Assembly: GCA_014871385.1 (NCBI GenBank)
Contig: CM026427.1
Span: forward strand, 1,546,068 to 1,610,067
Length of the DNA: 64,000 nucleotides
Source of the DNA: Ceratodon purpureus
Lineage: Eukaryota; Streptophyta; Bryopsida; Pseudoditrichales; Ditrichaceae
Direction of reading: 5' to 3'
Shown here: positions 1,509 to 46,616 of the stretch, piece after piece
How the letters are laid out: each line of letters starts with the position of its first letter
Position numbering within the stretch: the first letter of the stretch is position 1
Program-made: the position numbers and the translations under genes
The notes under the pieces: model-generated
The model's input: only the letters and a program-made list of their open reading frames with translations
Told to the model about the DNA's origin: nothing
Database searches by the model: none

Positions 1509-4500
1509 TTAATCAGATTCCGCTGATTGGGAACTGCTCTCTTCATCCTCTTCACATCGTTCCAGATTACCCTTCGCAACAGCCACCTGCACCCCCGGGA
1601 TTGTGATGTTCATTGCTCTGGCTCTTGGTTTCCAAGCAGTCAGAATCGAATCTGTGTGTACCCAGCAAGGTGGCTGCCTGGAGTCAGCCTTCCACTTCAA
1701 TGCTGCCCTGCCACTGACATCCCACCCCTCGTAGGAATTTTGTATACTACGATCCTTCTTCACAGGCGTGAAGTACTGGACATTAATGTGCTTATAATGC
1801 TCACTGGTTGAGGAGAGTCTTGGGTCCGAAAGAGCTAGAGCAACCCAAACCGGTTTAGGATGTTCTCCGTCATCACCTGCACGAAGCAACAACATGTATC
1901 CTTCTCCACAGTCTCGCGAAACACGAAAAGAAGGTTGTGGCCTTGCCCTAGCTGGGCCAATGAAATGATCGTCCTCATCAAATTCCTCCCTTACACTCCC
2001 ATTGCCATTGAATATGTCGTTAACGCTCTCGTGAACCCTAGTGGTGGGCCAAAATCCATCTGCAAGGCGAGATCGATCCTGCTGAGCCAGACCAGCAGGA
2101 ACAGCAAGAGCGTCCCTAACACCCTTCCAATAATTTATCAATGGCCCCTGCTTTTCGAGATAACTCCCGGAATGATCTTGCGCTGCAAGCGACTCCCAGT
2201 ACAATATGAAGCCTGATAATCCTTTCACGATCTCGTCCTTGTTCCGCATGGGTATAGGAATGGCCGCGTATGGATCACCGGTCGGCAACATCTGTTTCCC
2301 TGCTGCGTCTATAGTCCACAACTTGATCCCCTCCGCCGGCTTCCAATTATCTTCAGTGCACAAAATCTTGAACTGCATTATCGGTTCACCTTCCCGCATA
2401 GAGAATTTGAATTGTTGGCCCTTTGTATGCCCAATGAGCCTGTCCCCGTCCTTTGCAATGTAGGGTGATACAAATGCCTTGAAATCGGGCACTTCTTCAA
2501 TCAAGTGGGGGATGACCTTTCCAGAATTCTCATCAATGTTCATATATGACTCCATCAGGGATGGAAGCGTTGGGAAATCGCTCTCTCGCAGCTTCATGCT
2601 CCATCTTCCAAACGAGGCGTCGATGTCTTCATGTGTGTGACCCACGAGAAGAAACGACACGAACACTTCATCAAATACTCCTCTCGCAACAAGTAGTGAC
2701 CAAAAGCAGAAAACGTATCTGCTTTTGTTATCCTTCCAGCAGTTATCGAGTTGCACATGAAGTACAGGAGGTAGAGGTGATGCATCCATTGATTCTCCAG
2801 AAATGCCTAATGCTTCAATGCATCGCTCCTTGTCTTGAAGGAGTGCACTGAACAACGGCGTCGTACCAGAATTCTCAAATAGTTGCCGAGTTGCTGAAGC
2901 TTTAGGACGCTCCAGGTCGCGAAGTAGTCTAGCAATAGATCCCACTGTGTGGTTAGAGTCTGCTGGATACAAATCAAGGGCATAGTGAGCGTATCGGACA
3001 TCACCATGACCATGCGCAATCATACCCGTAACCGAAACGGGAAGCTTCATAAGCCCCTCTGTATTTTTGTTTCGGTTAGCCAAACATGGGGACGCCGTTT
3101 TGGAATGGTCCATCTTATCGTGTATAATTGTTAAAACCTGGTTTGGCTTTTGAATTGACAGGTACCGTGAGGCATAATAGGCCTGACGATGAGCTTCTTG
3201 CTCAGCGAGGTGACGCTGAAGTGCGCTTGCATAAAATGTGTGGGCCGTGGAACCCACGGCATGAGAGTTCATAAGTTGTTTCCTCCTATCACACGTGCCA
3301 CACCTAGCAAACATATCCCCACGACGTTTGATGATACAGTCGCTGAACTCCAATCTCCGAAGAAAGCTCACTGTCGAAGAAGATATGAGTGGTAACCCCA
3401 ATGCAGTGTTTACCTGCAAGAAAACATGGGATTGATGAATGAGAACATATAAAATATATTTAATTGAATCACCATTGAAGCTACCTACGAAAGCTGCTAA
3501 GCAGTAATCTCGTAATTAAGATGGTCATCTTAATCGTCCTAACAAGAGAAATGTCCTGTATCCTCTGTAGAACTTCAGATCGTTCACGATGATGTACAGC
3601 CATACAATCAAAGGATCATACTGCGCAGTGAACATATACATTAAACACTAGTACATCCTTTAACCAATATTCTTTGTACTTTATTACGACCTGTTCAGTA
3701 AAAGTGAACGTCACAGACTAGACAATGAGCTACACCTGGAACCGCTACCAACCGAAGGAAACATACGTTTAGTCTATTACTCCAGATTAAGATTGTCATC
3801 TTAATCCAGTATCTATAGCGTATTCTGAGGTTGATGATATCTCTTTGCGAATCCAGAGCGCAATCTCTTCAGACGGACTACATAAAATGTAAGGAAAACC
3901 AGGCACATACGACTCACACAATTTGTATCATTGTTTGTGAATTTACTAAGATTAACTTTCAATGAATAAGCGGCTGTTCAGTCCAGAGAATCGTGCACGC
4001 ATTCTGTTCTAAAAAAATAAAATTCTCATTTACTAAGAAAATGCGTCCGTCTTTGAGAATTCAGTTCTATGCATAAAGAACTGATCCAATCTTCATTACA
4101 GTGTAGACTCTACTTTATTGATCTATTCTCTCAACTCAAAAGCATAAGACCTCACCAAGTCCAAATTAACTATGTTCTCTATATTTCAGATGTTCGAAAA
4201 AGGAGGAAAATTGACCTACGATCCTTGAAACACTTTTGGGCTACACCATCTAAAGACTACATCACTTAGAGTTGAAACAAAAAGGAGCTGCTCTTACCTC
4301 ATTCAGCTTATCCCGGATATCCTTCCATTTAGTCCCAGCAGGCAACACGCGCTCCACTACCCTTTCTCCTGAGGGCAAAGTTCGGAATCTATGGGGCATG
4401 AGATCGGCAGAGCCATTGATTATGCAAGAGAGCGATGCAGATGCCTGCCTTGTACCTGCCCTGCGCTTCCTTGTGCCCCGATTGCCGTGGTGAGAGGATC

Positions 4501-14919: not shown

Positions 14920-17900
14920 ATGGGAACAGACGATCCCTTTCTTTTCAGGGTTGCTATTCGACAGGATCTCTGTCCCAGTGATTGTGACACTGATTTTTTT
15001 GAGGAAATTGAGGACGTCAAGTTTACAATCCAAACCGACGTTGTTGATACGAGCGCAGGATGGTTCTTGGCGAGGGAGAACCTCACGTCTTCGAAACCCT
15101 CTCTTTTCATAAAGTTTGTTGGATCCCAAGATTATGTTCCTGTTACAGGGCATTCAGTTATATCGTGCAAAGCAACACATCCGTACGTATACATACTTCT
15201 TCAGAGGCCCGATTCTGTTCGAGAAGCGCTTCTTATCAACACCGTGATGTTTTCAATAAACCATGTGGAGTTGCGTAATGCGTGGAAGGATACTCCACTG
15301 GCAGCGTTCATTCTGGAGGCATTTAACAAGGACTCGAACAAGGCGGGGGTGACGCAGACACAAGTGGAGAAGCTAATAGCAAAATTGAAGGAATCGGTTT
15401 CAAAGAAAAAGAAGAAGGATAAGATTCCGAAGATAGACAAGGGGAGTTCATCCGGGGTCACCGAATCAGGTGCACTTCTAGAGAAAGCAGTTTCAGTGAG
15501 AGGCGCTCCTAAGAAGGTACCCAGATCGAAGGCAGCATCTAAGAAAACGGCGGGGGAGAAATCTACAGGGGGTGATGAGGATCCTGCCGATGCTGATGAT
15601 AATGAGGAGATACCAGCTGGGCATCACCTGCCTTCCACCCGCAACTCCGATGGATCAGTTGTCGCGGAGGAGTGCATCCGAAGATTCAAGAACTTCAAAG
15701 ACGATTTTGGGAAGTACTACCCCCTTGGATACGACACATTGGTGGATGTTGATGTTTCGAAGGTTGACATTGCGCCCTGCAACTACATCGTGCGAGTACT
15801 TGAAGGTGACGGTGTTACTACTGTTTACAACACCTTGCTGACACAAGTTATTCCGAACAAGCAAGTGCTTTGCCTTTTTCCACAGGGATTGACTTCCGTT
15901 CCTACCAGTTGGGAGCAAATTAAGAACCTAAGATTCTACGCAATTAACGGCCAGCATACGGTTAAGGCAGCTCAACGAATTCTCGCAACTCCTGGAGTTG
16001 ACAGTGCAAGAAAAGAGATGGTCCGAAATTGGAAGGCGCAGATTAAGTGGGATTTAGAAGCGTGGAAAATTCAAGCTATATCGGACTATTACAACCAGTC
16101 GAATCAAATTAATCCATTCAAGCCAACCTGGGCGTCTAATCTTGTTCATGTGAGGCGTATCTGGGTGGAGATGGGGAAGCCAGAGAGAGTCCGCTACAAC
16201 GCATCCGATAAGACGAGCCCCGAAATGTCACGCAAACGGAGCGATTGGAATGTAAGTACATCGCATTCCTATTGTCTAACCCTGAATCCAGTTTCAAAAG
16301 TTTTTGTTATTAAGACTGTCACCTCAATTTGTGGTCCTTCAAACTTTACATATTCACAGTAATACTTGTTATTCTGAATCAAAGTGAGCGAGAGTAAAAG
16401 GATTAGACAGTTGAGAACGAAGTACGTTAGAATCAGTCCAATTTTTCAATTCCAGTCCGCAAATGAATCAATTTCCAGTTGTTGAAGTTGTAAGGAAATC
16501 TCTGCTTGCTTGTCACATAAGCTGTTTCTACATGTAATGGTTGAAATGACTAACTTGTTAATATGAATGATCGTTTGAATTTGTCAGTGTAAATTAAAAA
16601 AAAATGCAAATAATTATAACTAATTTTCTAGCATGCATACATCAATCATCATTAGATGCCCTTCTTAATCTTGCGCTACTGAGTTAGAGTCTAATGTGCA
16701 TAAGATTAAGAACGTCATCTGAATTCAACCACATGATATTCGATCAAAACTCAGTATAGGTCCCCTGCGTGGAACCCCATGTTCTAGATTTGTAACCGCA
16801 TACTAGAGAGATATCTGTGTCGTTAAATTGCTAAAACCCGATCTGAAATTGAGGTGATCAGCGTAATATGAGACTGGGAATGACTGCATCTATTCAATCT
16901 CGGTCTGACGTAGATTTAAACAACTTGATTGAGCTGATACTAACACACATTGAGGTGGTGGGGAAAGTTCGTACGTGAGCGGAGAGCGTAGAGCGGAGAG
17001 CGGTGAGCGCAGAATGGAGAGCACAGAATTGACAATTAGGAAAAATTTCAAAAGCAAAGTAGACCCTATAACCGTGGAAAATTACTAAATTAAGGCTTAA
17101 TTTTGACACTTTTTTTAGAAAAAGAGTATATTACCGTGGAATTTAGGGTTATCTCTGGTAAGAATTTATTACATTTGTTCTCTAAGATACAAATTAGGGC
17201 TGATGTCATGATGACGTCATGCATACATTCCTTTAGATTTGTCATGGGTGTAGGAAAGCTACACTGATCAGGCGTTGAGTTTTAGATCAAACAATTAATT
17301 CTTTCATAGGATTATGTAAATGCACAAGGAAAGAAACAAATTTCACAGAACATAAAGGAGGCAAGGTTTGAAAACTTCCTGGAATATTTCAAAATTCGTG
17401 TATAATATCTTGACTGCTGAAACCAAGATATACCTTGTCAGAGTCCTTGTCTTCATCGAAGATTACTCTCTCTTCCTAGGCAGCGAAGCATCTGAATTTG
17501 AGTGATAGAAGTAGGAGATTTTCAGCATGAAACAACACTTGGTAAGCTGGGTTCCAGAGAAGGAGGTCACTCTTGGTTTCTTGAGCTTGTCTCTAGGTGG
17601 CGTATTAGGATAGTCATACAGTCCTTGGCATTCTGTGCTATATGCGAAGGTAGCGATGGAGTTCGGGGGGGTCAATCTGTAGGCTTGCGTGGAACGTTTT
17701 AAGACTACAACAATTTAGTGTGTTGCGCGATGCCGAAGGTGTGTAATGCGAGATCCAGGAGGACGAGAGCGGCTGTAGGTTTGCCCCCAAAGGCACCGGC
17801 GAGTTATGAGGAGCTGCGGCCGTGGCTGTTGGAGGTGGAGCGCGCCAGGGAACGAGGCATGGACCTGCCACCGTTTAGGCACATCGGAAGCCTCCATGTT

Positions 17901-20900
17901 GGTGAAGGTGAATGGCGTTGGACAGTGCTTTGTACCAATGAGCTTCTCCGTATTATGGAGTTGTCCCTAATCCCGTATCCCTTGCTATCGAACGTCGATG
18001 AGAATCCAGTTGTTCAGCTGCCCGAAGTGATCATATCGGATGGCGAAACTTGCTGGTTTGATATGGACAAGAGTTGGACTGTATATCCTTCGAAGGATTA
18101 GTACTGTGAAGTCTAGTGGGGTGTTTGAATACATTCCTTTAGATTTGGTCCCTTATTGGATCTAGATACGAGTATTCCAGCACGATGGTTTTAGATAATA
18201 TAGACGATTCTAGGAATAAGACAACTCGAAACCAACTAAAAGAAATGGTCTTCGAAGTTCGTGGAATATTTCAGAGTTCGTGTAGAATAATGGAGTAGCA
18301 GAAACCAAGATGTACACCAAGTCAAGAATAGATAACATGCCTATGGAAATATGGGATATTGAATGAGTAAAATATAATTAACAGCACAATATTATATTTG
18401 AGCCTTTCTTTTGTAACATTTCATTCTTCATATTATATTTTGAGCATTACAGTTGTGACATTTCATCCTTTACAAACACGGAGACAAAATGGACATGAGA
18501 ATCATAAGAAGTTTAGGTTTAGGGTAGTAGAGTAGACGAAGGATTACCCAAAGAACTCCAATTAAATCAAATCAAAGCAAATGAAAACAATGAAAGACCG
18601 AAGCCTCCTTCAAACTCAGAAAATGCTACCATCGCTACTTCCACTCTCAGAACTAGATGACTCTGAATCTCCTTCTACCGCCTCATCATCGACGAATAGA
18701 AGGGCCCTGGGATCAAAAGTAGTTGGCCGACTTGGAACATATGTCAGGGCTCCAGATTGAAACGCCTGTGCTAAGCCCTCTGCGTAGTCCGGAAGTATGA
18801 AAGGCTGAATCGGGCTGGAATGAAGACGCCACGATGGAGTGGACACTGCTCTTGGCCCACGTGGCGGTGTTGCTGAAACTACTCTGCAATAGAGAACCGA
18901 CTGTGGTTAGATAGAGTACGTAGAGCTAGAAAGAGAAGTAATGATTGGATAATATAAACAAAGAATGAAAGACTTACACCACTTATCAGGTCTTGGTCTC
19001 TTTGGAGGCGCTTCGCCTGCTGCTGCCAGCCTTGGATGTTTAGGAGGACCCATGGCTGATGGTTTGAGAAGGGCGTTGAATATGGCTTCGTCCTCCTCAA
19101 AAGCGAGAATGTGACGACCAACAGCCTGGGCGGCCTTGATGGAGGCCCCTGAAACTCGAAGAGAAACAAAGAAATGAGAAACTTTGGAAAAAACGAGAGG
19201 AAAAATGAAGCAGAGATATGTAAGAAGAGTTACCTGTCCCAGCATTCCAGTCAACAACTATGTCGCCGGGCTTGGACAGCTCCTCAATGATGCTCTGCAT
19301 CATCTCAGGGGATTTCTCCCTTGGGCCTCTCCACGGCACCCCCCCATTCATGAGCTGAGATTCGGAATCGGTGAAGTTGAAAATGGCATCACTCTTGGTA
19401 ATGTTGAGGAGCCCATGTATCAGGTCTTCCTTCTTCGTCTGGAAGGAGAAAGTACTGCCACTACGAACGTAGACGCGAATCCAGAATCGCATAGTCTGCA
19501 TTCAAGCAAAACTAGTGAGTAAAATGAAGCGGAAGGGTTATCAGTAAGCAAAGAGAAGGGCATGGTTAGGAAAAGTACCAAGTTCTCGGGGTTCGTTGGA
19601 GAAGTCAGGCCGAGTACATTGACACCCCACCAGTCCTTGAACAGCACGTATCCACCAGCAGCAGCTTCTTCCTCGATATCCTTAGCCAGCTTCTGATCAG
19701 TGTTGTAGATGAGGCAGAGGGCACCATCTTTCTGCAGGAAATCATCTGCAAAATGGAAGATGTCGTACAAATAATCCCTGTAGCGAGAGTTCCAAGGCGG
19801 AATACTCGTGGGAGGAACGGAAACGGAAGGGACGGGAAGATTCTCAGGAATGTCGGCAATGATCAAGTCGACTCTCAGATGGTTCTCTAGTTTGCACCGG
19901 TCCGGAACTTCGTTTTCGCGGCCTGCTCCAAACTTGAGGAAACAAGAAAGGAGAGTTAGTAGCTACATAACGAGTAGAGGTGGCAGAATCCATTAAATGT
20001 CGAAATATAGGAACAAACCTTGCGAATGAAGTCTTGAGTCTTGATCCAATCCGGGTCGCCACCTTTTACCTCCTGTCTCCTATTTCGCCGTAACATGGAA
20101 TCCACAGATGAGTTGAAGACGGAAACATGTGTGGAAATCGAAGCTCCAGCGGAAGAAGTTGGTTGAGGATATAGTTTGGCCTTCCTCTGCTCAATGAGAC
20201 TTCGCGTGATCGCAGAAGCACCAATGGATGAAGGCGCAGTCGCTGTGGTCGACGTTGGCATTGGGACGTCTACAGTTGGAGAAGCGTTGCCCGTCTCCTT
20301 CCCTGGTGAGGAAGACTCAGCCCCAGTATCTTGTGAGGTCTGTGACTTCGAACCAAGTGTTCGCAGTCGCCGAGCTCTCCCTTTCTTCGGTTGAGGTGCA
20401 GATGATTGACTTTGATGTTCTTCGTCTTCTTCAGAACCGTCGTTGGAGTCTCCGACTACTGGCGCTCGCAGATCAAGTGATGATTTGACATCGGCCTCAG
20501 AATCGACTGTAAAACCACGGAGGCAATCTAGATACCAACATCCTGCCTCCAAGTGGGGAGCTTTGTACCTCTTCAATTGCTGAGCAGAGTAGATACACTC
20601 GTCCGTGCCTCTCTGGATCCATAAAGGAAAGTACTTCGGGAGTTGGTGGACAGTGACGGCTCCTTTGGGAAGAAGCTCTCTCTTGAAGTACCTAATGTGG
20701 GCCAATTTTAAAATACTTAGTATGTGGGAGAGACGAAATGCAGGATTCGAAATGCACACATGTTTGAGAAAAGATTCATACCGGTAAATGACTCGCTTGA
20801 CAACATCTACCGTTCCAGGGAATTTCGTGAAAATCGACTTCTTATCAAAAGTCTTCTTCGCCTTGGATCCAAGGAATGTCGGGAATGCTCTGTCCCAAAG

Positions 20901-23900
20901 CAGAATACGCCAGCTCTCCACGTAATCGCCTGGTCGCTGAACATCAGGGGAGGCATTCCAATTGATGTCCAGCTCCTCAGACTTACACATGTTTTCGAAC
21001 TCTTGGATGACCGCTTCTTCCAACTACAGAAGACAGTCAGCAAAATTAGTCTACGACAATCAAAGTGATAGAATGACAAAGACATCATCAGTTCTGGAAA
21101 TAAGGGAGCATACCCCTGCCCAGAATGTAGCCCTGTTTAGCCAACGGTCGAGGTCAGCTTCCTTGAACTCCGGTGGTGGGAACCTATAAGACTGCCTTGA
21201 AGTCGGAGAGGAGTTCCACCACCTCAACCAACGAGCTTTGTACTTGGGTTCCACTGCCGCCGGCACAATCTTCTGCAGCTTGTCCAATGTCATCTCAGGT
21301 TTGTTGAGATCGCTGAAGTGGCGGTTAATCTGCATTTAGAACAGAACTGTTAGCATTATGAAATGAAGATATCATAGGAGATAAGAACAAAATAGCTTAA
21401 GATGAAGTGATTAAGGATTCACCTCGGCCAGGAAGTCGTCACCATTTTTGGGATTCGCAATGGCCAAGTACTTGGTGAAGTCCTTCTTCTTGACGGCCTC
21501 AATGTAGTTGTTTGACGCTGTCGTCATCGCATCCCAAACTCCAGATCCAGATTGATCGTCTACTGGCGTGTTCTCCTTGTAGGCTCTTGCGGCCTGATCC
21601 GAGGCGACTGCAATCTCTCTCTGTACATGGAGATACATTATATTAAAATCAATGTACAAACCACTTGAAATGCATTACTTAAAGTATATGCATCAAACGA
21701 ATGTACTTGCTGAGTCATGGTATAAATTCTTACTCGGTATAGGAACGCAATGAAAACCTTTGTTGTCAAGGTGAACCATCGGTCCTTTGCGTGTTTATTC
21801 TGCACACAGATTTCAAACTCTTCGGGGCTTAGAAGATCTTTGAATTCTTCTAACTTCATGACACCGAAAGAGCGGATGCGGAATAACTTCGCTGGAAGAT
21901 TACTCTTCACATGGTCATTCTCAGTAGACCTGTGGACAAAATAAACAGTTTAGAAAACACATCATAATAGAAGGATGATCCGAAATCAAAATTGAAAAAT
22001 TGTTCCACCAAAATTCTTACCAGTTGATGTCGTGCATGGCATGGAGAAGATTGCCCACTTGGCCGCGGGGGTCCAATATGATGCAATGCACGGAGATGTG
22101 CCAAGCTGGGTCGTCGGCATGATGCTTGTTGATGTGCCGTAACCAAGCTGAAAGGCGATGGTTACCTTCCCATACAAAAAACATTTTGCCACTGAATTGA
22201 TTGAGGTCATCGTCTAAACCTAGGTCGGCTTCGAAGGCTTCGTTAGCCCTACGCCAGCACGGGCTCCACTTTGCCTTCACTTCCTCCGTGACATCCATTG
22301 ACACCTCTTCAGTGTTGAACATGGAAATGTACATCACGCGGTCCCCATCTCTGTAGCCCTTCACGAACTCCCTCTCCAGATGTTGCACGCCCATTTCGCC
22401 AACCGGTCTGACTTTTGCCATTGCGACCATTCTACACAATGGGACCAGCAGGCGAGACTTCCTCAAGGGCTGAATACGAACGGCATTGATGACGTTGATG
22501 GAGTCAACTTTATGCTGTGTTCGATGAAGCAGTTCCCCTTCAACAGCGTCTTTCAAGTCCAAAGGCTTTGATGATGATGGCAACACGTCCTGTGTTTGCG
22601 TCAACTCGGGTACCTGCCGTAAGCAATGGAAATAAACAATCAAACACAACAATGTAGATACTGAGAAATGGAATTTACCAATCACATAGAGATTTTCTCA
22701 TAAATGAAAGAGTAAAAAAAAACATCTCAAATTTCATCTATAGCACCAAGAATCAAGGCCGTGCCACTCTACGAGGAGCTCTTCCATAGTACTGTCTAGC
22801 CTCTCTACTATTCCAATGATGGCGCCTCCTCCAAAATCGCCTCGTCTGACGGCAAGCGCTGGGCAGTATTGCCGGAAGGGCAAACACTACATGGGCTAGC
22901 CTCCTCAACACCAAAGGTGAAACTGGGGGATTAGGCGAAGACGGCGGTGTGCCAAGACGTGGCGAGTTGGGCATGTACACTGGAGAGGTGGGCATGTACA
23001 CAGGAGAGGTGGGCTCATAAACAGGGGAAGTAGGCATGTACTGGGGTGACTGGACCTCAAAAGGTCCAGTGTCTACACCCAAAGGAATGGCTAAATCACA
23101 GGTACAAAGACGCTCATCCTCTGGGTCTGACAGGTCTGAAAGGTTTATGACAGAGATTGGAGAATTGACAGACATGTCGGGAGCATCAGAGCCTACCTGC
23201 AAGTAAAAGGCAAATGAGGAAATATGAGCTTTCTAATCATTTGAAAGATCTTTCAAATGCTCAACTTCAATTATTTAGGATAATAGAACATGTGAATTTT
23301 AAAAATGAAAACATCAGAAACAATACCTCAGTCTCCTCAGGCCCCTTGCTTTCACTCTCGGTCCCGTTGTTCTGCTGAGAAGTATCCTGTAATTCACAAA
23401 AAAGGCACTAATGTCAATGATTAGAATTATTCTCACCCCTGTAGATAGGTTCTCATCTATATGCACAAATGATCACACATATATACAAGCAGGACATCCT
23501 AAAATGCTGGGCACATACAACAAGCAGTAAGCCCCAAGCTTCCTCGGAGGCATAGAGCCTCCTCGGCCGGGGCTCAGTTAGACGGCTCGCAGCACTCGTG
23601 TCTGCTCCGAAAGCAGGCACCAGGCTGCTTGCCACGAAATGGAAATTAAAAAAAAATGTGAGCCGCAAGCCTCATGGGAGGCTCATAGCCTCCTCAGCCG
23701 CGGCTCTTCAATACAAATGCTGGGCACATACAACAAGCAGTAAGCCCCAAGCTTCCTCGGAGGCATAGAGCCTCCTCGGCCGGGGCTCAGTTAGAGGGCT
23801 CGCTGCAGTGGTGTCTGCTCCGAAAGCAGGCACCAGGCTGCTTGCCACGAAATGGAAATAAAAAAAAAATGTGAGCCGCAAGCCTCATGGGAGGCTCATA

Positions 23901-26900
23901 GCCTCCTCAGCCGCGGCTCTTCAATACAAATGCTGGGCACATACAACAAGCAGTAAGCCCCAAGCTTCCTCGGAGGCATAGAGCCTCCTCGGCCGGGGCT
24001 CAGTTAGACGGCTCGCAGCACTGGTGTCTGCTCCGAAAGCAGGCACCAGGCTGCTTGCCACGAAATGGAAATAAAAAAAAAATGTGAGCCGCAAGCCTCA
24101 TGGGAGGCTCATAGCCTCCTCAGCCGCGGCTCTTCAATACAAATGCTGGGCACATACAACAAGCAGTAAGCCCCAAGCTTCCTCGGAGGCATAGAGCCTC
24201 CTCGGCCAGGGCTCAGTTAGACGGCTCGCAGCACTGGTGTCTGCTCCGAAAGCAGGCACCAGGCTGCTTGCCACGAAATGGAAATAAAAAAAAAATGTGA
24301 GCCGCAAGCCTCATGGGAGGCTCATAGCCTCCTCAGCCGCGGCTCTTCAATACAAATGCTGGGCACATACAACAAGCAGTAAGCCCCAAGCTTCCTCGGA
24401 GGCATAGAGCCTCCTCGGCCGGGGCTCAGTTAGACGGCTCGCAGCACTGGTGTCTGCTCCGAAAGCAGGCACCAGGCTGCTTGCCACAAAATGGAAATTA
24501 AAAAAAAATGTGAGCCGCAAGCCTCATGGGAGGCTCATAGCCTCCTCAGCCGCGGCTCTTCAATACAAATGCTGGGCACATACAACAAGCAGTAAGCCCC
24601 AAGCTTCCTCGGAGGCATAGAGCCTCCTCGGCCGGGGCTCAGTTAGAGGGCTCGCTGCAGTGGTGTCTGCTCCGAAAGCAGGCACCAGGCTGCTTGCCAC
24701 GAAATGGAAATTAAAAAAAAATGTGAGCCGCAAGCCTCATGGGAGGCTCATAGCCTCCTCAGCCGCGGCTCTTCAATACAAATGCTGGGCACATACAACA
24801 AGCAGTAAGCCCCAAGCTTCCTCGGAGGCATAGAGCCTCCTCGGCCGGGGCTCAGTTAGACGGCTCGCAGCACTGGTGTCTGCTCCGAAAGCAGGCACCA
24901 GACTGCTTGCCACGAAATGGAAATAAAAAAAAAATGTGAGCCGCAAGCCTCATGGGAGGCTCATAGCCTCCTCAGCCGCGGCTCTTCAATACAAATGCTG
25001 GGCACATACAACAAGCAGTAAGCCCCAAGCTTCCTCGGAGGCATAGAGCCTCCTCGGCCGGGGCTCAGTTAGAGGGCTCGCAGCACTGGTGTCTGCTCCG
25101 AAAGCAGGCACCAGGCTGCTTGCCACGAAATGGAAATAAAAAAAAAATGTGAGCCGCAAGCCTCATGGGAGGCTCATAGCCTCCTCAGCCGCGGCTCTTC
25201 AATACAAATGCTGGGCACATACAACAAGCAGTAAGCCCCAAGCTTCCTCGGAGGCATAGAGCCTCCTCGGCCGGGGCTCAGTTAGAGGGCTCGCAGCACT
25301 GGTGTCTGCTCCGAAAGCAGGCACCAGGCTGCTTGCCACGAAATGGAAATAAAAAAAAAATGTGAGCCGCAAGCCTCATGGGAGGCTCATAGCCTCCTCA
25401 GCCGCGGCTCTTCAATACAAATGCTGGGCACATACAACAAGCAGTAAGCCCCAAGCTTCCTCGGAGGCATAGAGCCTCCTCGGCCGGGGCTCAGTTAGAC
25501 GGCTCGCAGCACTGGTGTCTGCTCCGAAAGCAGGCACCAGGCTGCTTGCCACGAAATGGAAATAAAAAAAAAATGTGAGCCGCAAGCCTCATGGGAGGCT
25601 CATAGCCTCCTCAGCCGCGGCTCTTCAATACAAATGCTGGGCACATACAACAAGCAGTAAGCCCCAAGCTTCCTCGGAGGCATAGAGCCTCCTCGGCCGG
25701 GGCTCAGTTAGACGGCTCGCAGCACTCGTGTCTGCTCCGAAAGCAGGCACCAGGCTGCTTGCCACGAAATGGAAATAAAAAAAAAATGTGAGCCGCAAGC
25801 CTCATGGGAGGCTCATAGCCTCCTCAGCCGCGGCTCTTCAATACAAATGCTGGGCACATACAACAAGCAGTAAGCCCCAAGCTTCCTCGGAGGCATAGAG
25901 CCTCCTCGGCCGGGGCTCAGTTAGAGGGCTCGCTGCAGTGGTGTCTGCTCCGAAAGCAGGCACCAGGCTGCTTGCCACAAAATGGAAATTAAAAAAAAAT
26001 GTGAGCCGCAAGCCTCATGGGAGGCTCATAGCCTCCTCAGCCGCGGCTCTTCAATACAAATGCTGGGCACATACAACAAGCAGTAAGCCCCAAGCTTCCT
26101 CGGAGGCATAGAGCCTCCTCGGCCGGGGCTCAGTTAGAGGGCTCGCTGCAGTGGTGTCTGCTCCGAAAGCAGGCACCAGGCTGCTTGCCACGAAATGGAA
26201 ATTAAAAAAAAATGTGAGCCGCAAGCCTCATGGGAGGCTCATAGCCTCCTCAGCCGCGGCTCTTCAATACAAATGCTGGGCACATACAACAAGCAGTAAG
26301 CCCCAAGCTTCCTCGGAGGCATAGAGCCTCCTCGGCCGGGGCTCAGTTAGAGGGCTCGCAGCACTGGTGTCTGCTCCGAAAGCAGGCACCAGGCTGCTTG
26401 CCACGAAATGGAAATAAAAAAAAAATGTGAGCCGCAAGCCTCATGGGAGGCTCATAGCCTCCTCAGCCGCGGCTCTTCAATACAAATGCTGGGCACATAC
26501 AACAAGCAGTAAGCCCCAAGCTTCCTCGGAGGCATAGAGCCTCCTCGGCCGGGGCTCAGTTAGAGGGCTCGCAGCACTGGTGTCTGCTCCGAAAGCAGGC
26601 ACCAGGCTGCTTGCCACGAAATGGAAATAAAAAAAAAATGTGAGCCGCAAGCCTCATGGGAGGCTCATAGCCTCCTCAGCCGCGGCTCTTCAATACAAAT
26701 GCTGGGCACATACAACAAGCAGTAAGCCCCAAGCTTCCTCGGAGGCATAGAGCCTCCTCGGCCAGGGCTCAGTTAGACGGCTCGCAGCACTGGTGTCTGC
26801 TCCGAAAGCAGGCACCAGGCTGCTTGCCACGAAATGGAAATAAAAAAAAAATGTGAGCCGCAAGCCTCATGGGAGGCTCATAGCCTCCTCAGCCGCGGCT

Positions 26901-29900
26901 CTTCAATACAAATGCTGGGCACATACAACAAGCAGTAAGCCCCAAGCTTCCTCGGAGGCATAGAGCCTCCTCGGCCGGGGCTCAGTTAGACGGCTCGCAG
27001 CACTGGTGTCTGCTCCGAAAGCAGGCACCAGGCTGCTTGCCACGAAATGGAAATTAAAAAAAAATGTGAGCCGCAAGCCTCATGGGAGGCTCATAGCCTC
27101 CTCAGCCGCGGCTCTTCAATACAAATGCTGGTCATCGAAATTCGAATGCTCCCAACTGTCCTTATGAATCATTACTCCGGTCCCGAAGACCAACACAACA
27201 TGACCAGAGTCCTATTACGATATTTCATGCTAATGTATTCAGAGAATAGGCTTGCTTTAGGCACTCTAATTTTTTCAAAATACCATCGCCGACTCCCTGT
27301 CCCGACCAGCAAAAGCCAGGAGCGCGTCCCCGGCTGGACCAGTGCACACCCACAAGGGGCGGACCGCTCCTCCGACCTAAGATCCAACTACGAGCTTTAT
27401 ACGCACAACAACTTAATTATACGCACAAGAAGATCCTTCTTGTGAGCAGCAGCATACAGTCTGGAGCCGTAGCACTGTAGCAGCATTCAAATGCAAACGT
27501 CAATCGAAATCTCGAACAAGCAGATACCCGCAAGCCCACTACCCACAAACACGATAAACCCAAAACCCACCCAACCGAACTGCGACTCCTCGAATTCTCG
27601 CAATCCACAATCCCCCAACACACAATTTCTCAAGCACCCGCACTCCCCGAGCTTCCAATGCGAGATTCCAATCAACATCAGCAGGAACCCATAACCCTCA
27701 TTAACCCCACGTCCCCGTCAACCCCATCAAATAGTACCCATCAAGCATACAATTGCAAATTACCGACACCCATAGATTCTGACCTCGTCGTGCTCGTCTT
27801 CAGAGTCGAGCTCGTCGTCGTGGTCGCCCTCGATTTGGTCCTCGTGCTGCACTCCGGGCTGCTGCTGGAGCTCCACGCCTCCATCGAGCTCCAAGCCTCC
27901 ATCGACCTCCACCCCTCCAGCGACCTGCACCCCTCCAGCGACCTGCACATCATCCCCCTGGCCGCGGCCGCCCACATTCTGCTCTCCCTGCGCAGCCATT
28001 GCACTCCCTCCCTCGCCTGCGTCGAGAATGCCCAGCCTTGCTCGCCTCGCCTCGAGTCGGAGGTGCTCAAACTCCGTGCATTCTCCAAGAGCGGAGCCAC
28101 CACATTGATCCTCGACCCCTCTCATCCTCTCGATGCTCTGTATAAAAATAGCAGACAATTAAATCTACGATTCCCCTGTGTCAAGTGCCGCGGCCCTCTC
28201 CCTGAGACTTAGTATTCGAGTGTGAAAATTGCCGCGGCCCCTCTCAAATAGACTTAGAGCGAACCTCACATTCTTTATTCAAACTACTCAATTACAAACC
28301 TTTCACAAATATACTAGATTACACAAATAATTCCCATTACCTTGGTTCTAGAGAGAATATAAATACTTACCTTGTCGGGGTTTAAATAAAAATCTGATTG
28401 AGAATCAGCCTCCCCTGTCGAGAACTCATTGAATGAAAACGATGGTTGCGGAGACTCTAGTTTCTGACTACAATTGAAGACTAATTCTTCCGTCATGGCC
28501 TCACTTGCTCCTCTACTTAAATGTACAACCTGTTCGTGGTCGTGATTCTGGACGTCCTTGTCCTCTAATAATTCCTCTTTCTCCTCTACTATTGAGTCGA
28601 GAATGAGTTTGCGAAGGCTACAAAACTTCAAAGCTACAGGCAGATCTCCTCCTCTCCGTTTCACGGGTGCACTCAAATGGTCACTTTTAGAATCTACCTG
28701 CTTACGTGATGCTCTCCTCTTTCTAGCCCTTCTATTTGTAAAATCAGTGCGACCAGGTTTCCTTCTCTGTTTAGGAGTAACATAAGTGGAGGGAGATGGC
28801 CCTCCACTCTGCTTCATGTGTCTAACGAAAGGAAGGAATGTCTCACAAAAAGACTTCCATCAAAACTTCTCCCTGCTTAAATACCTCTCACGTACAACTA
28901 TTCACCTAGAACCCTAAGTTGATATACAATCTCAACAACTGATACATTGTCTGCCCACTTTATATTAGGAATATCATTAACAATTCTGTAATTGAAGCTA
29001 GATTTAAAATATCAACCTTTAATTATAAGGAATATATCTAAGTGCACTAAAAATTAAAAGATTTGAATCAAGCACTTTAATCATGCTCCTTTTTATAATC
29101 ATTGTTTTAAATGTAGAATTGAAATGACGGCTCATTCTAATCTTATAATACATCATGTCAAATAGAATCCGCTCTACGATTCAAATTTTAGAGTAGAGTA
29201 TAATAAACCTTACCTCATATACTTAGACCTGCAAAAAGTGGCACTGTAATTAGTTAGCGCCGTCTCTCTTAAATCATACATCCGTTACCTAACAGACAGC
29301 ATCATTCCCCAACTATTCACATGGACATTCCAACCCGAATAAAATGATCATCAACGATGCATCAGTCCTCTCACTCTGCTCTCGCGATAGCGCTTGGCTG
29401 ATGCACTCACTCTGCTTCCTTCTTCCACTTGTATCACTGAGTTGCCTGCGAACATGGGGATGGTCTGTCTGTACGCCCAAGGCATGGGCATCCCTCTTAG
29501 GTTTCGCGTAGATGACGATGGTCTAGCTACAGTTTCCTCTCTTCGCCTGAGTCTCAGATTCCATTTCCGTGAGGATACCATCAGTATAGAAGAGGAAATC
29601 TTTGATGACGTTACTGCAGAGGTTACCCACACCCTCGGGCAACTTTCCTCGAGAGATGAGAACAATATGTTGCAGTGGAGACTCCTCCCTGGATCCTATA
29701 GAGTCTATGGTCTTACTGATTCTCTTATGGCTGCATCCACTGAGATCCTCACCCCCCGTCGCTCTTCTACTTGCACAATTCAGACTCCCTTACCTCGTGA
29801 TGTCAAGGTCAAAGTCGAGCCTGGTACCGAGACTTCAGATGTAGAGAAACCTCCTCCTACCGTCATATCTCTCTCTTCTGATGACGAAGTCAGTCCCGTC

Positions 29901-32900
29901 AAGTTGGTGCCTAAGGTCCAAGCTGATGCTCCTCCTTCCAATGTGTCTCCTCCATTGTCCCAGGTCACAGTTAGCATTGTTCCGCTCCTTAAAGAGATTG
30001 CTAAGACGCGTGGGTCCAAAAACATTTTGAAGAAGATAGACTATTCCACTATTAGACACGAGAGAGTAGAGTACTTGCCTGCGAAGTTTGATGGTCCGGT
30101 TCTTTTTGAGTTGCCCCCACCTGCTGCAGGATCCTCTAAGCTCGCCGCCAAGTCAATGCAGGGAATGGACAAACGATACGACGGACACTTGTGGACCAAG
30201 ACCATCACAACAAACATCAAAAACGACTTCGGACTCTCTTTTCGAAGTTCCACCTGCGTCGGATGGCTGCGCTGCAGCAACAAGGAGTGTGACTTCCTGA
30301 AGCGTGTTCCCAAGATCTTCGAGGTTAACGAGACTGAGTTTGAAGGCTGTACCCTGCAAGCTTTTCTCATGGACCATCCTCCTCCATCTGACTCGACGCT
30401 AGTGTGCAAGGTATGTAAAGAACCTCCATCATGTGTAGCTACATGCGAGGCTAAGATTTATTACGTTGTGGGCAAACCGAATCAGACTAGAGCTTGTATT
30501 CACATTGGAACACATGATCATCCAGTGAAAGTAGGAGACTACAGAGACTCTAAAGCAGAGATTAGTAGCTTAATAGAAGAGCAGGTAGAGATGAACAACA
30601 AAGCAACAAAGAGCGCCGTTGTCCTGGAGGCGAGCAAACTCCTCATCGGGAGCTACCTGCTAACGCCCGAGGATGCACCACCGAGGAAGCTGACGATGGA
30701 GGAGCTGGTTCCTGTTATGGATCGATGCAAAGATATGGCGTCGCCCAACATCCGCAACAAAGTCGCCACCTTCAAAAAATTCAAAAGGTACGGAATCATG
30801 GACGGTATCACCAAGCTCCGTGGTAACAGTCTCTGGGCGTATGTCCAGGAGAATAGGTTTCCTGGTCAGGGATCGATGCGTGACAAAGTCTTCCTCTTCA
30901 AGATGTCGGAGGTCGGGCCGGGAAGTGGTGTCGACTTGGTCAGCCGAATGCAAGCTGGTGGCGACTTGGAGAACGCATGGATCATGTTCGACCATGTAAA
31001 ACGCGTCAAAGACTGGTCGACCATGGCGTGCCATGTGTACGACGCCACGTACTGCCGCGTGATGACAATCGCCACTTGCGACATGCAGTCCGAGGACACG
31101 GAGGCCCAGCTCGTCTTCTGGAAAAACCTGAACCTGGTCATGGAGATCAATGGCGTTGCAGCGCCGAACTTCAAGGGGTTCATGGCGGATAACGCACAGG
31201 CGAATTGGAATGCAGTGCGAATCCTTTACGGCAATGGCAACAAAGAGGACCCAATGGAGGACCGGGAGAGGTCGTGCTTGTTCCACTGGACTCAGAACAT
31301 GGTGGCGTATACGCAGAAGCACTTCCCCGAAGAACTCTGGGAACAGCACAAGAAGATGTGCACTCAGTACAAGAATGCGACCAGCATGGCAGAGGCGGAA
31401 ACTCTGTACCACGCGTTGCGAGCATGGTGGGCATCCACCGGGGTCGTTGGCGAAAGCGGGCTCATCAAACTCGATCAGTGGCTGTCATTCTGGCACCACC
31501 GCTTCCGCCAATGGGGGGGATTCATGACCGAGGTATTATCTCTGAACTCTGTTTTGATGTTTTTCATACTCGTTTCCTAGCCCTAACCTACAAAACTCTA
31601 ATCCGTGAATCTAATGGCACCTACTGTCAAAATTGCAGAAATTCACGGAAGAAGAACTGACAGAGATGCCCACCTGTAACCTCGCCGAAACAGTTCACAA
31701 CAAGTGGCTCCAAGCTTCTGGAAACAACGGGAACGACCTCTACGTTGCTACCGTGGACGATTTCGTTCGGGCTTTTCTTCAAGTTGTTAACTACTACCAA
31801 TTCCTCAAAGGTGACGTCGGCGGAACAGGACCGTCCAAGAAGGAACTCAGACTCCGGATGGCTGAACGCAACGCGAAGAAATGGGGAAATCCTACACTGC
31901 TCGATAAGCCCATGCTCGATATGCCAGGCGCGGATGAGTTCTGCACCCGTCAGCCTATCATGCCTGGAGCGGAAGTCTTCGGTTCACAGAAGCGAAAAGC
32001 CGACGTCCCCATCGGAGCTGACGAGGAGTCTCATCGCCCGGACAAGACAAACTTCTCACGCCCAAGAGGCCCAAGACGTGCCGTCAGGGCTCGCCCTATG
32101 CAGATGCCCGTCATTGTGGAAGACGACTCCGAACACGACACCGAGGTACAATGTACGCAACCTCCTGCCCAGGAAGTTGATTCCCCTTTACCTTCACCTC
32201 TGAACAAGGGCGGCATTCGCCATGTCAACGCGGTTGAAGAAACCAAGGTGGACGTGAAGGAGTGGCACATTTCGAGACTTCACAAACTTTCTGCGAAGTG
32301 CTGCTGGGCCCAGAGAGCTGAAACGAAGAAGAAGTGCACTGAGAGAATCGTCAGGGGGCCCCTTTGCACAGCTGCACCGACCTACACTGGGCTCTGGACT
32401 AACTATCGCAGGAACCTAGTTGAGAAGACTGAGTTCTTCTTCTGCTCCGACGATATTGAGCGCTGCGTGAAAGGCTCTAAGCGCAAGTGGGTAGCGCACT
32501 ACTCAAAGGACCAGGAATTCCCCTCCATTCCAGAGGTCTGGCCAGTGAAACTAGGTACTAATCTAAAACTCACTGAGATTCTTGCCCTCGAAGCAGCAGG
32601 CTTTCAACTTCCGCCTAAAAAGCCGGTCTCCCCAAGACGCCTCTTCTCCTCTGCCCCGCCCCCTGCGAATCTCAACTCGGTGCCAGTCCCTGCAGACGCT
32701 GACCGCTACCCAGGCAAGAGAGACGGCAAGATGGTGAAGCGCACTGCCACTCGTCCCAATCCGGCGCAGCGACTATCCATGGGCTCCTCCGAGTCTCTCA
32801 AAGCGCGCCTCCGTTCCGTCACCATGATACCTGAGCCGGGCCACGGTTGCATCATTGGGCTGGATTCGGGCGTCGCTCCTCACATCACACGTTACCAGAT

Positions 32901-35900
32901 TACCATCAGTTCTTACCCTGGTTGCACTTGCCCAGCATTCAAGAAGACGATGACTACGTTCAAAGGCAGGACTCAGTTCACGTATTGTAAGCACCTCTAC
33001 TACATACTCTTGAAGGTCTGCAACCGTGATCCCGAAGCCGAGCTTTTCATCCATGCGCCTACCTTTAGCTTCAACGAGGTCAAGCTTCTCCTAGAGAGTG
33101 GAATCTTGCGTCACCCCTTGGCGAAGAAGTAGGTAGCCCTCCTACTTTAGAACTGCCATTTCCACAATGGCCATTTGTCACGTAGTGAATGATTTTAGTA
33201 ATATACCATGTACTAAGTCAGCTATTCAGAAGCTGTATTGACTTTTTCCTTATATTAAAGGCTTTGTCGTTCACATTGATTGCATTCTATTTCAATACAT
33301 TCTATCTTGAAGAAGTGCACTATATACCTCGTATCCTCTGACATGTACCCTTTATTACAGCAAACATATACTTGTTATTAGATGTCCTAATCTTCGAACC
33401 TAACACGTTTAGGGTTGCCCACTACACTATCAGCAGGATTGCGAACCTCTGACTGTACTACAGGACAAACTACATTCGCATTCACTTTCGTTCCCACACT
33501 TGGAGCGTGTCCTTGGTATGATCGTTTCAGCAATGGCCCACCTCCCCGCCTCCGATTCACTGATTCCCTGGAATAGGTTCCCCTTGGGATCTTTCCAACC
33601 TTGGAGTATGCATGAGGTTGCAAAGGCACATCTGCGTCCTCCTCCTGCACTCTGATATCATCCGAATTTTCTGAACGTGGAGGGTCAGCTCTAACATCCG
33701 GTTGCACGTCAACATCCGTTGTTAAAGGACGCCCTTGGCTGCTGGCCATCACCTCTTCTTCGTCCTGGACATCAACATATGGTTGAAATGGACCAAGATC
33801 GTCAGCAAGTGAAACAACAATATCTCTGACGTCTTCCATAACTGCTGTCCCGCAGTACGGAAAAGAGCTTCACAAAACACCAACAGAAAAGAGGAAGAGA
33901 CATTCCATAATCCTAACTTAAATATCCGTGAAGGAGATGCTTGGCGCCCTTGAAAATCGGATATTCATTCATTTGAAAGTTGCATCTTCCTCAACTGAAT
34001 GGAAAAGGATGAGGGTTGAGCAGAAGTCATTTACCTTTTAAAATTAAAAAATAATAAAAAAAATTAAAAAATAATTATAAAAGCTAAAAGGAAAAAAAGC
34101 AAAAATAAATATTAAGGTTGAAAATAATATGAAGGCGACTAAGAAAATGAAAGAGAAAATAAAATGAAAGACAAAATAAAATGAAAGAGAAAATAAAATG
34201 AAAGAGAAAATAAAATGAAAGACAAAATAAAATGAATGAGAAAATAATATGAATGAGAAAATAAAATGAATGAGAAAATAAAATGAATGAGACAATAAAA
34301 TGAAAGAGAGAATAAAATGAAAGACAAAATAAAATGAAAGAGAAAATAAAATGAAAAGGAAAATAAAATGAAAGAGAAATTATAATGGAAGAGAAAATAA
34401 AATGAAAGAGAAAATAAAATGAAAGAGAAAATAAAATGAAAGAGAAAATAAAATGAAAGAGAGAATAAAATGAAAGAGAAAATAAAATGAAAAAGAAAAT
34501 AAAATGAAAGAGAAAATAAAATGAAAGAGAAAATAAAATGAAAGAGAAAATAAAATGAAAGAGAGAATAAAATGAAAGAGAAAATAAAATGAAAAAGAAA
34601 ATAAAATGAAAGAGAAAATAAAATGAAAGAAAAAATAAAATGAAAGAAAAAATAAAATGAAAGAGAAAATAAAATGAAAGAGAATTAAAGGAAAGGAAAG
34701 ATAGATAGAGTAATGGAAGTTAATATGAAAAATAAAAGAAATAAACCATGTAGACCATGGCGGATGATTTCTAACAATGTTAAGAAAATGTTACGATATT
34801 AAATGTTACTTTATCCCTCTTAAGAGCTTTAATACCAATACATTTTTAGCTGTAACTTGCGTATAAATTTGAGGAGATAAGGGGAATTAATCTATGCCTA
34901 AACTAGTTAGAAGGAGCTGGAGCATAGTAATTGGTGCACGTTAAAAAATTAATCATCAAAAAAAAGAGAAAACGAACTACAAATTCAATGAAAACACTGT
35001 AATTATTCCACGGTTATAGGGTCAATAAAATTACTAAAATTAGTGTTTTTCCAAAAATATACTGAGAATATTCGAATCTTCTAATTTTATATTTTATTTT
35101 TAGTAAAAAAAGTGCTATTTTTAGGTTCTGTCCCCCACTCTGTACTCTCCGCTCTCCAAATCTGCGCTCACCGCTCTCCGCTCTGCGCTCTCCGCTCACG
35201 TACAAGCTACGTCCTTGAGGTGGTCACCTCAATCTTAGACTCAGATATCGTTGTCATTCAAAATTGAAGAAGTTAAGGGTTGTAACTACATTTGATTTCC
35301 TATCGATGTTACTGTTCTTACAGTGTCTAAAATGCTAAGCCACATAATCGAAGTTTAAAAATTACATTTCATAAAATGTAAATGGTTTGCATATCATTTA
35401 TCCTATGGAGGTTTCACAAGGTATTGTATTCATAATATACTTTGTGTACTATAATCGTGAAGCTAATTTTCTGTGAACGACTTCTTCTTACAGAGGTTTT
35501 TGAACTCCATGATCCAAACTCTGTCGAGTGTAAGATCCAAGAAAGACCAGTTGGAGAAAGACGACAAGTTGATAAAGTGGACATACAATGAGGTGAGATT
35601 CGAGTGGACGTTGGTGCGGTCAAGTGACGCGTGCTGGGAGAAATGGGAACGTTTTTTCGAAAAACACATAAAAGGGGAACTCGTCTGTCCAGAATTCGGT
35701 CACTACATCAAAGACACTCCTAATTTCAAGAGCAACCTGAAGGCGATTGCACCGTTGACAAAGAATTGGTTTAAGTGTGTGGAATCACTCACAGAGAAGG
35801 AGATTGAAAAGCTGGTGACATATCTTCTGAATGAGAAGACTGATGATTTGAAGCCAATTCCAGTGTACCCCAAGGTGATTCCTTTTGCAGTGAAGGGTGT

Positions 35901-40533: not shown

Positions 40534-42308
40534 ATGTTCGGTCATCTAGATTTTACTGCAACCCTTCTTGTGTATATTTCCCACTTCGGATATTGTTTTA
40601 ATACACTTACCCTGGAGTAATCTTTTTGGAGGACTTGGTGCTTGATATCACGTGGTTGAACTTAGAAATCTGAATGTTACTTACGGACATAATCACTGGA
40701 AACAAGTTCTGTTTGAGTTATCTCAGTATGTTGAATGTTACAGCGTGTTCAATTTTGGTCATGCGTTAGTTTGATAGCTGGATTGAACTTGCTAATTAGT
40801 AGTGTCTACATCCCAGCTCTTTGGCGATCCAGTATTTGTTTCTCGTGATTTCTTATATCTTGATTTGGAATTGGATGCGTCGTCGTATTCCTGTAGTTTT
40901 GAGTCAGAATGTCTACTATTATTCTGTAAAATCAAAGTTAGATTTGAATAAGTCACGGGGCAATTGTTTCTGGAACTGGGTGTTTATTTCGGCATGGTTG
41001 ACATCTGTTTGTATTTCAGGATGACGTAATGTGTTGCCCCGTTGGTAATAGCTTGTTGTAATTAATTGATTTTGACTTAATTCGAAATTAAAAGCCATGG
41101 CAGTGTGATTTTGTGAATTAATGGATCACCTAATAAGTCTCATTATTCAGCAGGAAATGAATAAATAGCTTCTGTACCTAAACTGTTTGCTTGCCCGGCA
41201 TGGTTTTAGGATTAAGGTAACCTTCTTAATCGTGTGTTGAGACCTCGTTCACACTAGCTTTTTGGCGCTTGTCTCCTCTATTATTCTCCATACTTTTTGT
41301 TTATTCGCTATGATTGTTTACTGTTATTGAGCTTGCCTATCTCAAGCTGTTTCTGCTTTATGGATTAAGGAGACCTCCTTAATCCGTATCACGTTGGGAG
41401 AATTGGATTTACTTTTGGATAAGTCTCGAGTCATTTGAAAATTTGTTTCATTTTGGGTCCTGATATCTTGGACGTGTTTCTGAGAATGTTGCATGGTTGA
41501 ACCACAAAGAAGACTTCAATAATTGCCGTGATTCTGTAGGAAAATTTTAAGATGGTCATCTTAATTTTTGTACGACTTCTAGTTTTCGAAAATCATCATA
41601 CTTATTGCCTCCGGTACTATTGTGTTGGGCCTTTTCAGATGTTGGATATCACTTGATTTCTATTTTCCTCGCCTTTCTTTGTTTTGGGTTTTGAATGGGT
41701 ATCGATATGTCCATTGGTCAAAATTATATTCATATATGATGAATTTGATTTTCAGTTAGATTTCGATGTATTCAATCTGGACACCGTTTTACGAATTACG
41801 GTAGTACTCCTGTATTAAGTGGATCCAGGATTAAGGTGGTCATCTTAATTCTTCACCTACTAGATTGATTAGGATGATTAGTCTTATATCACTCTCTCCG
41901 CCTTGATGATAAGATGAATACTTAGATTTTATCAGTAGTCTTTGTGAGTCTTCTTGTAATATTTTTACTTATTTGTCTTCAGAGGACCTCAAGATTGTGT
42001 AGACGAGACTCTACTTGCGATATGGCGATGTACTCTGAGGGTGGTACCTGTAGAGAATTACCTCTCAAACCAATCTACCGAACCCGCTCGACAACAAGAT
42101 CTGGGAGACAATCATAGTTCTGACGGTCAGCTTTGTACGACTTAGTGAGTGCGGCACACGTAAAGTGTGCTGGACTAAAATCAATAGCACAAGTCAGTTT
42201 AGAAGATTTCGTTGTTTTGGAAGTGTGCCAGGTACTGGTAGTCTTAATGTTGGTGGCTTGTTTAATTCATATTGGTCTTGAGATTTGGCGTGTCGTTATT
42301 CTCCACAG
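40534..42308. other. spacer between the two HAD-like exons, four palindromes
   Basis: Sites are at 41211-41230, 41364-41383 (ATTAAGGAGACCTCCTTAAT), 41547-41565 and 41830-41849. A short frame beginning with the ATG at 42022 (MAMYSEGGTC) could be a first exon for the next gene. I found no phase-compatible donor to prove it. Confidence 0.55.
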
Positions 42309-46607: not shown

Positions 46608-46616
46608 CCCCCGGAA

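Follow-up and report, generated by a model that had tools for sequence, protein, structure and literature searches.

The window analysed here is a 64-kb stretch of the genome of the moss Ceratodon purpureus (contig CM026427.1, positions 1,546,068 to 1,610,067). It contains an 18.25-kb DNA transposon with two divergently transcribed genes. One encodes a transposase-like protein, and the other an accessory protein with a methyltransferase-like C-terminal half and a possible ParB domain in its N-terminal half. Between the genes lies a tandem array built on a conserved dyad. The features on which the argument rests are listed below, in window positions and with the strand where one applies.

16960..35214: whole element, 18.25 kb, with boundaries shared with other copies, inverted termini and target-site duplications (TSDs)
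16950..16959: left TSD, TTGAGGTGGT, 10 bp
35215..35224: right TSD, TTGAGGTGGT, 10 bp
16960..17013, + strand: left terminal inverted repeat (TIR), beginning GGGGAAAGTTCGTACGTGAGCGG
35161..35214, - strand: right TIR
29454..33132, + strand: transposase-like gene, exons 29454-31532 and 31639-33132, 1190 residues, with a C-terminal CxC...CxH (SWIM-type) motif
18616..22613, - strand: accessory gene, 10 exons spliced to an open frame of 1056 residues, with the same exon order recovered in other copies
22613-22021, 21929-21734, 21620-21423, 21329-21114 and 21023-20782, - strand: accessory exons 1-5
20691-20019, 19932-19579, 19495-19234, 19148-18978 and 18881-18616, - strand: accessory exons 6-10
22021..22613, - strand: exon with the ParB-like candidate region, its GNHR motif recognised by eye (residues 148-158 at 22172-22140)
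18978..19932, - strand: methyltransferase-like domain over three exons (PF01555, 4.9e-8; PHROG 6952, 7.2e-10; DpnA in the PDB, 8.4e-7 by profile)
22756..23232, - strand: PTSPVY-repeat open frame, probably a 5' exon of the accessory gene
23502..27131: tandem array of 17 units of 213 bp, holding 17 copies of a 25-bp dyad and 34 GAGGCN5GCCTC dyads

The element is a MULE-like (Mutator-like element) plant DNA transposon. Matches to all five other copies examined begin at 16954-16960 and end at 35210-35222, and the TIR arms (16966-17013 and 35161-35208) are 94% complementary. All six copies, the window included, have 10-bp TSDs, which together with the TIRs fits the MULE criterion of TSDs of 8-11 bp. 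In the transposase-like protein the motifs DATY, ADNA, CxxH and CxC...CxH can be read by eye, as candidate parts of a DDE core and a SWIM zinc finger. TSD length and a SWIM-type motif of this kind are described for Mutator-like elements in passages of PMC6446971. The protein has no match in Pfam and none to a profile built from six further MULE loci of this genome, and a comparison of the transposase exon with the PDB gave no informative match. A first-pass annotation of this DNA had called the element a MULE. The 10-bp TSD, the TIR and the SWIM-type motif fit this, but the MULE transposase profiles do not match, and it is for this reason that we write MULE-like.

The accessory gene is the second gene of the element, divergently transcribed from the transposase. 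Among the matches listed in our genome scans, an accessory-gene place lies within 25 kb of 36 of the 61 transposase places, on the opposite strand in all 36 and upstream of the transposase in 35. After shifts of 100-500 kb, only 1-4 of the 61 remained linked. This count used 105 of the 150 rows for the ParB-like exon and all 150 for the methyltransferase exon, the other 45 being mostly from contig C6 at 77-94% identity. The transposases at the other 60 places are 96-98% identical to that of the window.

The five motifs quoted in the first-pass annotation are indeed all present in one spliced open frame of 10 exons on the - strand (WEGNHRLSAWL at residue 148, ADIPENLP at 732, PWRGPREKSP at 878, VVDWNAGTG at 904 and GRHILAFEED at 922), with GT donors and AG acceptors at the exon joins. 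The accessory protein has at least 1056 residues, and at least one further 5' exon probably precedes 22613. When 13 other copies were spliced by homology, eight gave 1049-1052 residues without a stop, and one (c1b), in which the last exon was not found, gave 965. The remaining four (L032, L034, L036 and L037) are broken or contain stops. The methyltransferase exon is 100% identical at four places including the window, which suggests recent movement. Two trivial explanations were considered and rejected, namely prokaryotic contamination (there are nine introns, and each of two genome scans scored 150 places in the same genome) and chance motif matches (the Pfam N6_N4_Mtase match exceeds its curated cut-off).

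The C-terminal half is a genuine homologue of the beta-class N6/N4 methyltransferases, as judged from its sequence, with a damaged catalytic motif. The spliced protein matches N6_N4_Mtase (PF01555) with 33.6 bits against a cut-off of 26.7 (E 4.9e-8), and the PHROG models 6952, 3008 and 67 at 7e-10 to 1e-6, of which 6952 gives 7.2e-10. The exon with motif I alone reaches 3.3e-4 with PF01555, below the cut-off, and the match to NCBIfam CcrM is weak and far under its cut-off. PF01555 is matched by all five family members tested when E values up to 1 are allowed, the best being 1.2e-9. A profile built from five sequences, in which the window is 29-35% identical to its sisters, found DpnA (8.4e-7) and CcrM (5.5e-6) in the PDB, the latter over nearly the whole domain (profile positions 18-232). 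The same profile gave no informative match against viral contigs; near whole-domain alignments of this half to phage methyltransferases cover 22-245 of 246 positions, with a best E of 0.03.

The beta-class layout proposed in the first-pass annotation thus holds, including the permuted order of motif IV followed by X-I-II (residues 732, 878, 904 and 922; motif I, VVDWNAGTG, from 19258), and so does its remark that motif IV departs from DPPY. The catalytic motif IV of beta-class amino methyltransferases is [DNS]PP[YFW], and its aromatic residue stacks on the flipped base. This pattern was not found in the window, where the sequence is ADIPE (at 19857), nor in the 11 other copies printed, all of which have DIPE. 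A scan of the genome with PF01555 scored 150 of 772 candidates and found the window family and others; the four best-scoring loci (L038-L041), which were cut out and read, are sister families with DQPY (one) or DQPF (three) and no intron inside motif I. Catalysis by the DIPE-type domain is doubtful, since the sister families have DQPY or DQPF at this position, and the motif suggests a loss of activity.

These observations bear on the possibility of an active N6A or N4C writer that binds the element encoding it and labels it with N6-methyladenine (6mA) or N4-methylcytosine (4mC). The motif order, the GTG loop and the acidic motif II are kept, invariant residues are held in common with the sister families and their DQPY or DQPF, and there are the near whole-domain alignments to phage methyltransferases and CcrM. 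Set against this are the invariant DIPE, which places a glutamate at the position of the base-stacking aromatic, and a constraint on this half (given below) that is weaker than that on the N-terminal half. An active writer is thus unlikely, and the suggestion of the first-pass annotation that the window copy writes 6mA or 4mC is weakened.

The array lies between the two genes in all six copies examined. In the other five its units are of 213 bp (35 copies), 213 bp (21), 128 bp (31), 212 bp (16) and 202 bp (45). The four unit types share nine consecutive 16-mers, which amount to a single 24-base word, while 300 shuffles gave words of 5-7 bases. The word spans the loop of the dyad GGTGTCTGCT-TTCGG-AGCAGACACC together with one complete arm and half of the second. 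The 64-kb window has 17 sites within three mismatches of the commonest form (15 with one mismatch and two with two), all of them in the array and on the - strand. All six arrays also hold a second dyad, GAGGCN4-5GCCTC, which is otherwise absent from the window. Across the genome the 25-bp dyad has 847 sites within three mismatches, and the reversed pattern has none. An exact form of the dyad in IUPAC code, which excluded the variant of the window array, matched in only four of 65 loci.

The dyad is tied to the accessory gene. All 17 dyad clusters (in 16 elements), drawn from the best 100 of 847 and the best 100 of 162 places listed, lie 0.8-2.1 kb upstream of a ParB-like exon and on the same strand, and six shifted controls gave none, with all 150 rows for this exon used. 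The place lists are ordered by mismatches and then by contig, and the exact matches on contig C1 were taken as complete. On this contig the genes fall into the window type and a type of about 73%, and an exact dyad cluster accompanies five of seven window-type genes and none of six 73%-type genes (one-sided Fisher about 0.016, calculated by hand). On this small sample the dyad therefore goes with the type of the N-terminal half.

The two halves of the gene have had different histories. The first five exons, compared with four 73%-type copies (L030, L031, L033 and L035), give a synonymous divergence (dS) of 1.6-2.1 or saturated and a non-synonymous divergence (dN) of 0.16-0.19. The N-terminal half is under purifying selection, with dN/dS of 0.10-0.11 between the subfamilies in the two pairs for which dS could be computed (L030 and L033). 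The methyltransferase exons, compared with the same four copies, have a dS of only 0.09-0.12, and dN/dS is 0.33-0.47; the value of 0.59 for c1b goes with a dS of only 0.006. Between the types, introns 6-9 show 90-93% similarity and introns 1-5 48-53%. Constraint was considered as an explanation for the strong conservation of exons 7-9 in the 73% type and rejected, because introns 6-9 are just as similar (0.90-0.93) and the dS values are low; the similarity is instead ascribed to recombination between the types. Exon 6 is intermediate (dS 0.77-0.80), so that the join between the halves falls within it. All four of the complete 73%-type genes that were read share their methyltransferase half with the window type; two further copies, L032 and L034, are broken and yielded no methyltransferase half. 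In L033, which is one of the six 73%-type genes on C1, the methyltransferase exons are 91-95% identical to those of the window. The exact dyad is found with the window type but the methyltransferase half is common to both types, which suggests that site specificity resides in the N-terminal half.

The same data speak to the idea that the accessory gene is a decaying passenger without function. Many copies on the 110-Mb contig carry stops. On the other hand, nine of the 13 other copies read have open frames, the N-terminal half has a dN/dS of about 0.1 between subfamilies, and the 10-bp TSDs and near-identical copies suggest recent movement. Decay is therefore disfavoured, and we regard it as very improbable.

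On the basis of these sequences, and by analogy with the VANC proteins of VANDAL elements, we tentatively hypothesise that the accessory protein is a VANC-like factor, which binds its own array and keeps the control region active against host silencing. This is the best reading of the data, and we consider it about as likely as not to be correct. VANC itself we take to be a protein unrelated to the moss accessory protein. The N-terminal half, possibly with a ParB/Srx fold, would recognise the dyad and load the protein on the array, and the C-terminal half would serve as an exchangeable effector module with affinity for S-adenosylmethionine and DNA. Base methylation in the window subfamily would be weak or absent, given its DIPE at motif IV. 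Overall, the protein would protect the control region of the element from host silencing and keep it active, in the way that VANC acts on VANDAL elements.

The array might instead be bound by the transposase or a host factor (as a promoter, an insulator or an excision site), the methyltransferase-like gene being a captured passenger with a separate role, for example as a transposition cofactor like MURB. The array does sit between two divergent genes, linkage alone cannot name the binder, and the methyltransferase half has been exchanged between subfamilies. Against this, the exact dyad on C1 follows the type of the N-terminal half (five of seven against none of six), while the transposases at the other 60 places are nearly uniform. 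We consider this alternative unlikely. A more specific scheme is a parS-like system, in which a ParB-fold protein would load on dyads beside its own gene and spread as a clamp, the methyltransferase-like module shielding or marking the element. The dyad and the reader half would then co-evolve, and the effector half would be swapped between subfamilies. This last scheme appears quite unlikely.

Several results weigh against a VANC-like factor that binds its own array. Binding, methylation and anti-silencing we infer alike from sequence, and the transposase or a host factor could be what binds the dyad. The comparison on C1 comprises 13 genes, and an exact cluster is missing from two of the window type, C1:22500816 (99% identical) and C1:28480583 (88%, carrying a stop). 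The genome-wide search for the dyad used two closely similar variants, and arrays of the 73% type may carry a diverged form. The array units are moreover related by descent, about 68-80% alike where aligned, so that some of what they share is inherited, an effect for which the shuffle control does not correct.

Homology to ParB, judged from sequence, is also not established. The accessory protein has no significant match to ParB_N (PF02195) or to any other ParB profile in Pfam and PHROG, and a profile of the N-terminal half has none in the PDB or in prokaryote genome contigs. PF02195 finds matches in 11 of 14 control genomes but none anywhere in this genome. With a profile built from 11 phage ParB-like proteins (hmmsearch) the moss rows score 0.7-4.9 bits, 12 of 2000 shuffles reach the 2.4 bits of the window row, and an unrelated open frame of the window scores 8.2 bits, above every moss row.

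A ParB domain is nevertheless possible on the evidence of the GNHR motif and its surroundings. GNHR fits box II, the P motif GxxR of ParB-like proteins (described in passages of PMC12704722), and is invariant in all three subfamily rows of the N-terminal alignment. Aligned to the phage ParB profile with hhalign, this alignment has a probability of 0.1%, and a single-sequence AlphaFold2 model of the ParB-like exon alone has a pLDDT (predicted local distance difference test) of 32. A tblastn search of phages with the ParB core found one virus, Drs3, at E 5, in which the matched gene is a plain N6_N4_Mtase without a ParB match. Suggestive only are the sole phage match of the 42-residue GNHR core, to one phage (two records) annotated as ParB-like, at E 6, and the matches of a two-piece core to four plasmid records at E 0.6-10, two of which are DUF262 proteins. 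In the profile searches of the predicted protein that the first-pass annotation had called for, N6_N4_Mtase was matched and ParB was not, and the ParB domain it had proposed is not shown.

Some further features of the element and its copies may be recorded. The repeats at 22756-23232, YMPTSPVYEPTSPVYMPTSPVY, resemble the heptad of the RNA polymerase II C-terminal domain (PF05001 E 0.0084, below the cut-off). This putative exon is present in 10 of 14 loci scanned (L001-L008, L012 and L020). The window itself is L001, L012 and L020 are repeats of L002 and L007, and the other four loci stop short of the region. Contig C6 (110 Mb) has many accessory-gene copies with stops, as if decaying, and only five of the 61 listed transposase places. 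A repeat near the right end of the element and the other genes of the window are as follows.

34120..34684: 17-bp A-rich tandem repeat (minisatellite), 33 copies, also found in copies c7, c1a and c10
1512-3515: open frame with DUF7869 (E 3.6e-44), possibly another mobile-element protein
39640-40530: NIF-like frame, below the cut-off
42282-43139: NIF-type phosphatase (E 1.6e-14)
46608-48907: piggyBac-type transposase (DDE_Tnp_1_7), split over two frames
51157-53028: Pogo/Tc5-type transposase (DDE_1 and HTH_Tnp_Tc5)

The first-pass annotation had regarded a ParB-methyltransferase fusion as unusual in a eukaryotic MULE. It is not unique: ParB-methyltransferase genes in giant transposons are already known from brown, green and red algae, according to the passages of PMC12477816 available to us. 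These describe Sola1-1_Ec32 of Ectocarpus, a 21.5-kb Sola element with a ParB and N4C/N6A methyltransferase protein on the strand opposite the transposase, and cite similar proteins of green and red algal transposons; 6mA/4mC writing is suggested for the algal proteins. By architecture alone the moss element is alike, being a giant transposon (18.25 kb) with the same two claimed domains opposite the transposase, in a protein of at least 1056 residues as compared with 1104. It differs in its land-plant host, its MULE-like nature with 10-bp TSDs, the DIPE motif and the gene-linked dyad array. Our literature search for ParB with methyltransferase, from whose coverage most subscription journals were absent, found only the Ectocarpus case within its land-plant scope and no moss case, the bryophyte scope giving only bacterial plasmids and genomes, which is weak evidence of absence.

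Fusions of ParB to N6/N4 methyltransferases are also reported from phages (in passages of PMC12704722). Two of them, phi1_186018 and Phlop, likewise have an N-terminal ParB-like part followed by a methyltransferase at the C-terminus, in which motif IV can be seen by eye to precede motif I. The moss GNHR corresponds to GNHT in phi1_186018 and GHHV in Phlop, and GNHR itself occurs in some phage ParB-like proteins. Unlike the moss protein, however, these two have DPPY and no large middle region, and the moss N-terminal half has no significant match to their family. As regards Mutator-like elements (passages of PMC6446971), the moss element is similar in its 10-bp TSD, TIR of about 50 bp and SWIM-type motif, and differs in that its transposase matches neither Pfam nor the six-locus MULE profile of the same genome.

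The functional parallel that we propose is to VANC of the Arabidopsis VANDAL MULEs, which removes silencing and binds motifs in tandem repeats that co-diverge (passages of PMC5735166 and PMC10398659). Both cases have a second gene encoded by the element and a conserved motif multiplied in non-coding tandem repeats, and in both the repeats vary among related copies. For VANC, binding and hypomethylation have been demonstrated, whereas the moss case is known from sequence only. The algal accessory genes are little studied, their mechanism not being tested in the passages of PMC12477816. The moss offers a land plant, a different type of transposon, many near-identical copies and a conserved, densely repeated candidate site linked to the gene, so that the mode of action of such proteins could be tested with one protein and one 25-bp probe. 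Within the literature searched, what is new here is the land-plant host, the MULE-like carrier, DIPE alongside sisters with DQPY or DQPF, the recombined halves of the gene and, most of all, the dyad array linked to it.

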